DNA of 64,000 bases, taken from Microvirga zambiensis WSM3693 (GTDB taxonomy: Bacteria > Pseudomonadota > Alphaproteobacteria > Rhizobiales > Beijerinckiaceae). Below are positions 18,500-22,026 of this stretch, in pieces. The position numbers and the translations under genes were made by a program. Every line of letters begins with the position of its first letter. Position 1 is the stretch's first letter. Location of the stretch: positions 124,001-188,000 of the forward strand of contig NZ_JAERQD010000007.1 of assembly GCF_016735695.1 (NCBI RefSeq), in the 5' to 3' direction. The notes under the pieces are model-generated. The model was not told the DNA's origin, made no database searches, and saw only the letters and a list, made by a program, of their open reading frames with translations.

Positions 18500-18585
18500 G
18501 CGGACGTGGCGAAACTGGTAGACGCAAGGGACTTAAAATCCCTCGGGCTATGCCCGTGCGGGTTCGATCCCCGCCGTCCGCACCA
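18500..18585 (+). tRNA. tRNA-Leu (anticodon UAA)
   Basis: 86 bases including an encoded CCA. Acceptor arms GCGGACG/CGTCCGC, anticodon stem AGGGA/TCCCT with loop CTTAAAA (anticodon TAA), a long variable arm (CGGGCtatGCCCG) as in class II tRNAs, and T-arm GGTTCGATCC. Confidence 0.97.
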
Positions 18586-18652: not shown

Positions 18653-18670
18653 CTGTGACGCATGTCACAG
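18653..18670. promoter_or_regulatory. CRP-like palindrome, site 1
   Basis: CTGTGACGCATGTCACAG, with the exact TGTGA-N6-TCACA spacing of CRP/FNR-family sites. It ends 54 bases before the ATG of the small secreted protein at 18725. Near-identical sites precede two further small genes. Confidence 0.6.
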
Positions 18671-18724
18671 AAGACATCGTCAGATCGTGTCACCATGGAC
18701 CCTGTATGATCCGTGGAGATGTTT

Positions 18725-19018
18725 ATGAAACACGTCAAACGGGTGTGCGCTGCCATCGGCTTCATCGGCATCAGTTCTGCCGCATTGGCGCAAAGCCGCC
18801 CAGTGACCACGACGATGTCTTGCAATCAGGCGCGAGGCCTTGTCGCCAGTCAGGGCTCTGTCGTTCTCAGCACAAGTGCCACAGCCTACGAACGATTTGT
18901 GGCAAACAGCACCCAATGCGGGATGGGTGAAGTGCCGGCGCCCGGATGGGCTCCCACCAAGGATGTTCCTCGATGCCAGGTCGGCTCTCGCTGCGTCGGC
19001 GTCAGCCGCGGCGGGTGA
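18725..19018 (+). CDS. Small secreted four-cysteine protein, paralogue 1
   Basis: 97 residues. Signal peptide to about ISSAALAQ, then a short mature chain with four cysteines spaced as in three other proteins of this window (22219, and the minus-strand genes at 19336 and 27524). Shared pattern: SRPxTxxMSCxQARxxVAxxG, then VLxT, YxRxV, a Cys, and a final CxVGxxC. I do not recognise a function; two disulfides in the periplasm or outside are likely. ATG at 18725 has GGAG at good spacing. Preceded by CRP-like site 1. This is the most divergent of the four (YERFV for YDRYV). Confidence 0.8.
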   Translation: MKHVKRVCAAIGFIGISSAALAQSRPVTTTMSCNQARGLVASQGSVVLSTSATAYERFVANSTQCGMGEVPAPGWAPTKDVPRCQVGSRCVGVSRGG

Positions 19019-19082
19019 GTTGACCTGAGCGATACCCTCATATCTTGGGGGGCCCTATAGGCGCCGCGGATTATGGCTGGTG

Positions 19083-19100
19083 CTGTGACGCAATTCACAG
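19083..19100. promoter_or_regulatory. CRP-like palindrome, site 2
   Basis: CTGTGACGCAATTCACAG, TGTGA-N6-TCACA type, ending 55 bases before the ATG of the mini membrane protein at 19156. Confidence 0.6.
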
Positions 19101-19155
19101 AATCCCGTGCCAGCCTACGCCATCTTGCAGCCCTCTCGGACGCAAGGAGGATGTC

Positions 19156-19290
19156 ATGAGGGCACCGGACCATCACTTTCAGAAAGACCACGGACGTGAG
19201 GCGCCGCCCATTTCTCTGCCGTTCGCCCTCTTTCTGGTCGTCGGATCCATCAATGTCGCAGCCACGGTCTTCTCGCTGCTGGCGGCTTGA
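19156..19290 (+). CDS. Mini membrane protein 1 (44 residues)
   Basis: A charged/His-rich N-terminus of about 18 residues, then one hydrophobic helix ending INVAATVFSLLAA. AAGGAGG sits seven bases before the ATG, a very strong ribosome site, and CRP-like site 2 lies upstream. The helix closely matches the gene at 19990 (INVTATILSLLAA). Function unknown; likely a single-pass inner-membrane peptide. Confidence 0.75.
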   Translation: MRAPDHHFQKDHGREAPPISLPFALFLVVGSINVAATVFSLLAA

Positions 19291-19335
19291 GGATTATCCA
19301 TTCCTCTCAATATGCCATCCCGAATGCCCTGGGCC

Positions 19336-19638
19336 TCAATCATCATCGAAGAAGAACCAAGGCGGATCGGTTTTGCACGTATATCCGACAGGGCATTGTG
19401 GAGTGTCGGCAGACGGCACCCAGGCTGGCCAAACCCATTCACCGACCAGGCAGAATTCTTGGCCGCTGACATATCGGTCGTAGGTGTAGCGCCCAGTCCC
19501 CAGAACGATGGATCCTCGGGTGGCAACCAGATGCCTCGCCTGTCCGCAACTCATCGTCGGTGTTTGAGGTCTCGGCTGCCCCAGCGCTCCTGTAGCGATC
19601 ACGGTTGAGGCGACGAAGATCAGGACCAACCTGTTCAT
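19336..19638 (-). CDS. Small secreted four-cysteine protein, paralogue 2
   Basis: 100 residues. Signal peptide to about ATGALGQ, then the family pattern PRPQTPTMSCGQARHLV, TYDRYV and CPVGYTC with four cysteines. It has an extra C-terminal tail WFFFDDD. Encoded opposite to its neighbours. A GTG at 19650 (four codons earlier) is nearer to an AGGA and is an alternative start. No CRP-like palindrome found upstream. Function unknown. Confidence 0.75.
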   Translation of the reverse strand: MNRLVLIFVASTVIATGALGQPRPQTPTMSCGQARHLVATRGSIVLGTGRYTYDRYVSGQEFCLVGEWVWPAWVPSADTPQCPVGYTCKTDPPWFFFDDD

Positions 19639-19656
19639 ACTGATCACCACATCCTA

Positions 19657-19746
19657 GAGCTCCTTGAAGAGCGCATCGTTGAGCGCGGAAAACCGGATCA
19701 ACTTTTCGCTGACGCGGCCCTCTGGGTCCGCACGGTGCGCTAGAGC
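19657..19746. repeat. Palindromic repeat family B, copy 3 (partial)
   Basis: GAGCGCATCGTTGAGCGCGG... with TTCGCTGACGCGGCCCTCTG and ending GGTGCGCTAG. Corresponds to the second half of the 63159-63317 copy. Confidence 0.8.
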
Positions 19747-19911
19747 GGCGGAAGAGGAGGCTGCGCCTAGGTTGAATTGGCTTCGGCGGGCGGACAGTCA
19801 AGAACCCGCGATCATGAGGGTTCATGAGGCATCGTCAGTTCCAACCTTCAAATTCCTGACAGCTTAGCTGTGCAAGCTTGGGCATTTGATCACCACCGAC
19901 CGACGAGACGC

Positions 19912-19929
19912 CTGTGACGCATTTCACAG
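19912..19929. promoter_or_regulatory. CRP-like palindrome, site 3
   Basis: CTGTGACGCATTTCACAG, TGTGA-N6-TCACA type, ending 60 bases before the ATG of the mini membrane protein at 19990. Confidence 0.6.
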
Positions 19930-19989
19930 CGCTCGCGGCGCGATTGCACCATCCTGTGCCCTATCCAATGCGGTCACCGAGAGGGTGCA

Positions 19990-20127
19990 ATGAAGAAGAT
20001 GGATTACTTCTCCGAACGCGAACCGAAGGTACGCTCCTTTCCCACGTCAGTTGCCCTGCTGCTCGTCATTGTGGGGATCAACGTCACGGCGACCATCCTG
20101 TCGTTGCTTGCGGCGATCCAGGGATGA
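19990..20127 (+). CDS. Mini membrane protein 2 (45 residues)
   Basis: Charged N-terminus (MKKMDYFSEREPKVR) then one hydrophobic helix with INVTATILSLLAA, near-identical to the helix of the 44-residue protein at 19156. GAGGG precedes the ATG and CRP-like site 3 lies upstream. Function unknown. The repeated helix, similar size and shared operator argue it is a real gene. Confidence 0.7.
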   Translation: MKKMDYFSEREPKVRSFPTSVALLLVIVGINVTATILSLLAAIQG

Positions 20128-20146: not shown

Positions 20147-20401
20147 TTAGGCCCGCTCGCCTCCCTCATCGTCGAGCATTGCCTCGACAAACGGAAACTC
20201 GAGGACGATGTCGCCGGCGTCGTCCGACACCTCGATATGGGACGCCGTCCAGTCGACGGGCTTCTCGAAGCGGGTCGACATGAGGCTTCGAGCCATGGCG
20301 CGGGCGGTTTCCCAGGCGCGATCGGGGTCTCGCAGGTCCTGACCGTCAGGATCGCGGACGACGTCGCCTCCGATATGGACGTTGAAGAAGTAGCGCGGCA
20401 T
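20147..20401 (-). CDS. DUF6894-like small protein
   Basis: 84 residues beginning MPRYFFNVHIGGD, the hallmark of a family abundant in Hyphomicrobiales (DUF6894 type), whose role is unknown. Contains RDPDGQDLRDPDRAW and an acidic C-terminus. Start at 20401 is fixed by the conserved MPRYFF; the open frame extends 11 codons further upstream without conservation. Confidence 0.8.
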   Translation of the reverse strand: MPRYFFNVHIGGDVVRDPDGQDLRDPDRAWETARAMARSLMSTRFEKPVDWTASHIEVSDDAGDIVLEFPFVEAMLDDEGGERA

Positions 20402-20490
20402 GAGACGCCCTCGAATCCAGGTTTGGTCGATCACAGCTGCTTGGAATTCTCGGCAGCATCGAAGGCCGATTCAAGCCTTCGCGCCGGTCC

Positions 20491-20727: not shown

Positions 20728-20928
20728 GCAAGTCTCCCTGCATCCTCGTGCCGGATACGTGCCGGGACAGGTATTGGTTCCCTTCTCTTTGGAGGTACTG
20801 CATTGGGTGCCCTATCAAGTCATTGATTTTGCTGAGCCAAATACCTCTTTTGGATGAAAGGCCAGCATAGGATCATTTTTCCAATACCTGGCACGGGGAC
20901 GCATAGTCCCGATCTTTCGACATCCCGT

Positions 20929-20954
20929 GGAACAGCAAAGCCGGCAGCGCAGTT
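20929..20954 (+). promoter_or_regulatory. Possible EcfG-type promoter before the RTX gene
   Basis: GGAAC at 20929-20933 and AGTT at 20951-20954, spacing 17, resembling the GGAAC-N16/17-CGTT pattern of the alphaproteobacterial general stress sigma factor. It ends 55 bases before the ATG at 21010. A short match that could be chance. Confidence 0.3.
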
Positions 20955-21009
20955 GACGGACACCACAACGACGCCGTCGGGTCTGCCCGACCTGCGCGAG
21001 GAGATGTCC

Positions 21010-22026
21010 ATGCCGACCGTGATTGCCATTGAGGCCAAGCCTCTGGAATTTGAAGATATCAACAGCGGCTTCTTTCATCTCTATCTCGTCAAGACGCAGA
21101 CCGATGACAACGGAAAGGTGATCTCGGAAAAGGTGATCCGGGGATCGTTGGAGGGCGGTGGCGACCTCGGCACGCTTGCCGGCGGAAGTCTGGCATCCTC
21201 TCCCGACAGGCGCGGCTCGGACACGCCGGAGGAACGGCACCGTACCGTTCTCGACCTCGGCGCGAGAAGTGCCGACGACGTCTGGAAGGTGATGGTTCAG
21301 CACGCCGTCAACATCGATAGAGCAGATCTTCAATACAGCATCGACATCTTCCGGCAGGCCCCGGGCGACGATCTGAACAGCAATTCCGTCATCGCGTCGG
21401 TGCTTCACACCGCAGGCCTCAGCCTTGCCACGAGCCTTCCGGTCGGCGTCAGCCGCTCCGAGGCGCCGCTCTACGGCCAGCTTCAGTTCATGGATGTGGA
21501 CGACAAGCTGTCGGGAACGGCAAATGCCGATCGCATTCTCGGCGGCGTCGGCAACGATACGATCAGGAGTGGGCTACAGAATGACTCGATCTACGGCGAA
21601 GACGGCAACGACATTCTCTGGGGCAGCTCCGGCGACGACAACTTGTCCGGAGGGAACGGGAACGACCGGCTCTATAGCGGCTGGGGCAATGACATTCTGC
21701 GCGGAGGCTCAGGCAAGGACGCTTTCGTGTTCTATTCGAACCCGAGCAGCACCAACATCGACACGATCCGCGATTTCTCCGTTCGCGACGACACGATCTG
21801 GATGGAGAACAAGGTCTTCACGGCGCTGGGGTCGGCGGGCCTGCTGAAATCGTCGGCCTTCTGGACGGGAACCACGGCGCATGACGCGACGGACCGCATC
21901 GTCTACGATCGCGCCGACGGCATTCTCTATTACGATCAGGACGGTACCGGTGCGATAGAACAGGTTGCCTTCACGAAGATCGCAGCCGGTTTGCGCATGA
22001 CGCACGCCGATTTCCAGATCGTCTAG
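21010..22026 (+). CDS. RTX calcium-binding protein
   Basis: 338 residues, secreted type expected for type I export. Residues about 1-165 have no recognised fold. Between about 170 and 245 are hemolysin-type nonapeptide repeats (GGVGNDTI, GEDGNDIL, GGNGNDRL, GWGNDILRGG), some degenerate. The C-terminal ~90 residues (KDAFVFYS, DTIRDFSVRDD, YDQDGTGA) match the domain that usually follows RTX blocks and holds the uncleaved export signal. No enzymatic domain and no ABC exporter gene nearby. ATG at 21010 has AGGAG at good spacing. Its TAG stop is the edge of a family B repeat. Confidence 0.85.
   Translation: MPTVIAIEAKPLEFEDINSGFFHLYLVKTQTDDNGKVISEKVIRGSLEGGGDLGTLAGGSLASSPDRRGSDTPEERHRTVLDLGARSADDVWKVMVQHAVNIDRADLQYSIDIFRQAPGDDLNSNSVIASVLHTAGLSLATSLPVGVSRSEAPLYGQLQFMDVDDKLSGTANADRILGGVGNDTIRSGLQNDSIYGEDGNDILWGSSGDDNLSGGNGNDRLYSGWGNDILRGGSGKDAFVFYSNPSSTNIDTIRDFSVRDDTIWMENKVFTALGSAGLLKSSAFWTGTTAHDATDRIVYDRADGILYYDQDGTGAIEQVAFTKIAAGLRMTHADFQIV

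Follow-up and report, generated by a model that had tools for sequence, protein, structure and literature searches.

Three near-identical 18-bp sites in Microvirga zambiensis WSM3693 probably act as activator sites of class II promoters, with the Crp-family protein here designated CRP2 (or its neighbor CRP1) as the likely regulator and cAMP as the likely signal. The sites lie within the window, the whole stretch of 64,000 nucleotides that was analyzed. Related species keep the site at the same place, and a true regulatory switch that turns on tiny membrane and secreted proteins is therefore very probable. Three similar sites lead to a testable regulon with candidate regulators, promoters of constant geometry, and a short list of targets, largely tiny uncharacterized proteins.

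A check of the window sequence located the three 18-mers, and the distances of 54, 55, and 60 bases to the following ATGs were exactly those given by an earlier, sequence-only reading. Operator 1 (CTGTGACGCATGTCACAG, 18653 to 18670, plus strand) lies 54 bases before a gene for a secreted four-cysteine protein (18725 to 19018, plus strand), for which ATG 18725 was taken as the start and an in-frame alternative exists at 18719. Operator 2 (CTGTGACGCAATTCACAG, 19083 to 19100, plus strand) lies 55 bases before ATG 19156 of a 44-amino-acid mini membrane protein with a single, C-terminal hydrophobic stretch (19156 to 19290, plus strand), and operator 3 (CTGTGACGCATTTCACAG, 19912 to 19929, plus strand) lies 60 bases before ATG 19990 of a second mini membrane protein of 45 amino acids (19990 to 20127, plus strand). 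A four-cysteine paralogue (19336 to 19650, minus strand) is divergent from operator 3. TGTGA-N6-TCACA is exact in all three operators, and, as stated earlier, two central positions are all that distinguishes them from one another; the spacers of relatives vary at more positions. The two mini genes are paralogues with 43% identity, and neither product had a Pfam or NCBIfam match up to E = 1. No Pfam or NCBIfam family above cut-off was found for the secreted four-cysteine protein, and a Foldseek comparison of its model (pLDDT 76) with solved folds returned nothing better than E = 2.5.

Pattern counts were made in the window and in the strain's own genome (7,364,131 bases on 257 contigs). A chance origin of the three 18-mers was rejected, since the window count lies far beyond the shuffles: at up to three mismatches there were four matches (one of them operator 1 on the opposite strand) against an expectation of 0.33, and each of 100 shuffles gave fewer than four. 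The exact 18-mer pattern occurs at only these three places in the genome, and at up to two mismatches it gave 12 matches versus 1 with a reversed control. The sequence-only reading had named a motif both abundant and unrelated to gene starts as a result that would refute it; this was not what the genome showed, the core TGTGA-N6-TCACA being found at 16 places in 7.36 Mb and its reversed control at none. Nine of the 16 exact core sites are accompanied by a -10-like element, all nine with a start codon downstream; of the seven without it, at least three fall within long coding frames. Sites at C22:51573, C22:69917, and C166:74735 were set aside as probable chance matches, located within frames 248, 368, and 368 amino acids long. 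The composite of site plus -10 element has nine exact matches in the genome, namely the three in the window, four at a locus on contig C111, one on C122 before a repeat protein, and one on C11 before a 139-amino-acid frame. With one mismatch allowed, 30 composites were found versus 3 in the control, some of the 30 being the same site read on the other strand. Across 149 genomes of the family, the exact CGCA-containing motif was present in four, the strain's own included.

Conservation of the site was followed through relatives of the mini proteins. Such relatives are present in the Microvirga records VF16, Mcv34, and sesbaniae, each with a CRP-type site 55 to 60 bases upstream; in VF16, as in the window, a four-cysteine gene with its own site precedes the mini gene. 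Using a six-row model, we found 37 matches in 16 of 48 Microvirga genomes and divided them by eye into 19 of the window subtype (mini-1, the window's two included) and 18 others (mini-2). Five of the 19 mini-1 genes were part of the search model, and the remaining 14 were not. TGTGA-N6-TCACA is kept before all 19 (15 exact, three with one mismatch, and one with two), at 55 to 61 bases from the ATG. Among the 18 other relatives, a site within two mismatches was found in none when 130 bases upstream were searched. Comparison of 18 of the 19 mini-1 genes in four groups showed the most differences at third codon positions, which argues that these are real genes; in two of the four groups, nonsynonymous codon changes exceed synonymous ones. 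A two-row model run against 149 family genomes retrieved the mini proteins only from the strain's own genome, an outcome explained by a sample that held just five other Microvirga, none of them among the 12 genomes with mini-1 genes described below.

With the 18-mer centered at -41.5, a -10-like element falls at -12 to -7, and each window operator is followed by one at a gap of 20 bases: CACCAT (18691 to 18696, plus strand) behind operator 1, CATCTT (19121 to 19126, plus strand) behind operator 2, and CATCCT (19950 to 19955, plus strand) behind operator 3. CA[CT]C[CTG]T stands exactly 20 bases behind the site in all 19 mini-1 promoters. When the looser pattern nAnnnT was scored over gaps of 10 to 33, it was present in 19/19 mini-1 promoters at gap 20 and in at most 8/19 at any other gap. 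The gap-20 element was defined without the regulator loci considered below, although those had been inspected before; of 132 sites at those loci, read in either direction, 95 have nAnnnT at gap 20, compared with at most 29 at other gaps. The 37 sites that do not have it count against the favored explanation. In an alignment of the 19 mini-1 promoters, the site and -10 columns form the chief conserved blocks; columns 36 and 50, outside both, are likewise invariant. As judged from these alignments, the arrangement of site and -10 element would correspond to class II CRP geometry at -41.5. The earlier reading of the half-sites as a CRP-type operator is supported.

The central bases tell a different story from the one first proposed, which took a constant CGCA in one half-site as the mark of one specific regulator. 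Within the spacers of the 19 mini-1 promoters, C7 is kept in 9, G8 in 17, C9 in all 19, and A10 in 16, so that it is the GC that is conserved and not CGCA as such. Sites at the C111 locus also differ in their spacer from the CGCA of the window. That signature does not hold, given that position 7 is C in only 9/19 promoters, and it is further opposed by the presence of three RE-helix Crp-family proteins in the genome.

Not all of the four-cysteine family shares the site. Among 23 distinct four-cysteine genes in mini loci, five (the window's gene at 18725 and four relatives) have both the exact core and a CA[CT]C[AT]T element, and therefore only part of the family belongs to the putative regulon. 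The window's three other four-cysteine copies showed no site of their own, the paralogue at 19336 to 19650 having none within 130 bases. The idea that one regulon joins two small-protein families is supported for members of both and does not extend to most of the four-cysteine genes examined. The family is also broader, occurring in 47 of the 149 genomes. A sequence expression recognized 20 of 29 four-cysteine relatives from other genomes, and no core site within one mismatch was found in the 300 bases before those recognized, the best having two mismatches at 283 bases; for this reason the four-cysteine family probably did not have the CRP-type site ancestrally.

Mini and four-cysteine genes frequently adjoin. 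A second mini subtype (VMNVCATVLSL-like) lies just upstream of a four-cysteine gene at loci L104, L115, L116, and L129, and no CRP-type core was found before it at these four loci. At a mini-2 gene of VF16 (L045:1712-1755), inspection by eye showed CATCCT with GTGC-N6-GCAC 20 bases before it, replacing TGTGA-N6-TCACA; this is perhaps a site for a different CRP.

Candidate regulators were sought in the strain's own genome by a search for Crp-type helix-turn-helix domains, in which 150 of 167 first-look candidates were scored. Three of the 18 matches above the Pfam cut-off have an RE recognition helix: CRP2 (GRETVNR), CRP1 (SREGLNK), and CRP3 (REQITR). On C111, about 8 kb separates CRP1 from CRP2, and genes between or next to the two encode a HAMP sensor, a Ser/Thr kinase, and a class III nucleotide cyclase. 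The locus also encodes an ABC exporter, an HlyD protein, a patatin, and a protein of the Peptidase_C93 family, to which LapG belongs. Both CRP1 and CRP2 contain a cNMP-binding domain. In the cyclic-nucleotide pocket, inspected by eye, CRP2 retains GE and RS; the pocket serine is a threonine in CRP1, which counts against the favored explanation. All three proteins missed the 266-bit cut-off of the CRP equivalog model NF008732 (CRP2, 83.1 bits; CRP1, 78.7 bits; CRP3, 65.6 bits). CRP3 is encoded away from the C111 locus (C237:7039-7254, L093), and its RE helix counts against a firm assignment of the regulator to CRP2 or CRP1. Matches of 30 to 33%, in frames of 237 to 238 amino acids, occur in many genomes of the genus and are possible relatives of it.

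The 12 regulator loci compared across the genus are themselves rich in sites, with 132 within one mismatch (5 to 15 per locus), where shuffles gave means below 0.4 and a maximum of 3. For the four of the 12 loci whose downstream genes were listed, sites precede the exporter, the HlyD protein, and the peptidase in 4/4 and the repeat protein in 3/4, along with several recurring small frames of about 33 to 90 amino acids and some doubtful ones. The roughly 2.3 kb upstream of CRP2 (L028:15713-18021) contain nine sites at up to one mismatch. Tiny frames, among them one for a DUF6894 protein, follow several of these sites, and a divergent gene pair may be served by one. Promoters at L028:8115 and L008:1501, on different contigs, have spacers that differ at one base, share CAAAGT, and precede related NVNASPIT repeat proteins.

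Occurrence of CRP2 in the genus matches that of the mini-1 genes. Orthologues of at least 82% identity are present in 12 of the 48 genomes, exactly the 12 with mini-1 genes, while 10 further genomes without mini-1 have CRP2 relatives of 55 to 60% identity with an RESVNR helix; some CRP2 match at E ≤ 1e-10 exists in all 48. In an rpoB tree of 46 genomes (of the two omitted, one had no match and one was fragmented), the 12 form one clade with support of 0.985, and their co-occurrence of CRP2 and mini-1 may therefore represent a single event.

The sites with their spacing and conservation, and the matching promoters at the regulator locus, are read from the sequence; binding, activation, the role of cAMP, the acting CRP, and a surface role are inferred. 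A Crp-family dimer would bind TGTGA-N6-TCACA at about -41.5, replacing a -35 box, and would assist RNA polymerase at the weak -10 element, CAnCnT, which follows after 20 bases; a secreted four-cysteine protein and both one-helix membrane proteins would be switched on jointly. The regulator would most likely be CRP2 and possibly CRP1, the signal would likely be cAMP, perhaps from the C111-locus cyclase, and the small proteins may cooperate with the secretion locus at the cell surface. Another Crp-family member, for example CRP3, might read the same class II promoters, or they might be read without a cyclic nucleotide, a possible though rather doubtful alternative. CRP3 is a third RE-helix protein, the nearest solved relative of CRP2 is the Crp-family chain 4ev0, and there is a precedent in TTHA1359, which binds a near-identical consensus (AWTGTRA-N6-TYACAWT) and reportedly has no cofactor such as cAMP (PMC8465061). 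Against this, CRP2 keeps the pocket residues and shares its locus with a cyclase, that locus is itself full of the sites, and the CRP3 helix has a different residue order.

A palindrome alone cannot separate activator from repressor, and the operators could be repressor sites or belong to an unrelated regulator with the same palindrome. We regard this as improbable, because in the 19 mini-1 promoters and at most regulator-locus sites a weak -10 element stands at a constant distance of 20 bases, as an activator at -41.5 requires. That the three sites are functionless copies left by a recent gene-cluster duplication is very improbable: the mini genes are paralogous, as are the four-cysteine genes, but the stretch from site to -10 varies among paralogues, site and -10 element are kept in 12 genomes, and the same site and spacing also precede four-cysteine genes, which have no visible resemblance to the mini genes. 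An FNR/FixK reading was considered unlikely, because the operators are TGTGA-N6-TCACA and not TTGAT-N4-ATCAA, the operator of FNR and FixK.

The best solved-structure matches of CRP1 and CRP2 were 3i54/3d0s and 4ev0, the former mycobacterial and the latter from Thermus, proteins from other phyla and with other targets. CRP2 aligned with RETVNK in 3i54 and RETVSR in 4ev0, and CRP1 with SRETVNK in 3d0s. Both are only distantly related to Escherichia coli CAP, whose best chain matched CRP2 at E = 2e-18. The E. coli CRP site is TGTGAN6TCACA (PMC4117774) and class II CRP sites are centered at -41.5 (PMC5957442); the site and, by prediction, the spacing are common to E. coli class II promoters and the Microvirga operators. 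E. coli CRP targets sugar catabolism, whereas the targets here are uncharacterized small proteins and a secretion locus. Within Rhizobiales, the literature on Clr of Sinorhizobium meliloti describes a cAMP-responsive Crp-type regulator and an uncharacterized target gene, smc02178, required for Clr control of infection (PMC5498481), a likeness in that a Crp-type regulator has a gene of uncharacterized role among its targets. Membership in the Clr regulon, compared by motif, was rejected: the Clr core motif, GTNNCNNNNGNNAC (PMC10127613), fits operator 1 and not operators 2 and 3. By eye it fits none of the 19 mini-1 sites, and the window has about as many matches to it as chance would give (11, with 12.4 expected).

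Limited literature searches on Microvirga and alphaproteobacterial TGTGA regulons found no paper describing this regulon and nothing on cyclic AMP or LapG in Microvirga; two Microvirga papers mention CRP and regulon once each. For two families that matched nothing in Pfam or NCBIfam, the putative co-control with a secretion and peptidase locus gives a hint of function. More speculatively, and on balance doubtfully, one Microvirga clade might possess a dedicated cAMP circuit, with a cyclase and two CRPs inside the locus that they control, driving an exporter, a LapG-like peptidase, and tiny secreted and membrane proteins; mini and four-cysteine proteins would then form a new two-part surface module, perhaps on plant roots.

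Other features adjoin the small-gene cluster in the window. The second mini gene is followed, after 0.7 kb, by a gene for an RTX calcium-binding repeat protein (20854 to 22026), a possible type I secretion substrate; upstream of that gene, no CRP-type core was found at up to one mismatch. A DUF6894 protein (20147 to 20434, minus strand) adjoins the cluster, and tRNA-Leu(taa) (18500 to 18585) lies directly upstream of operator 1.
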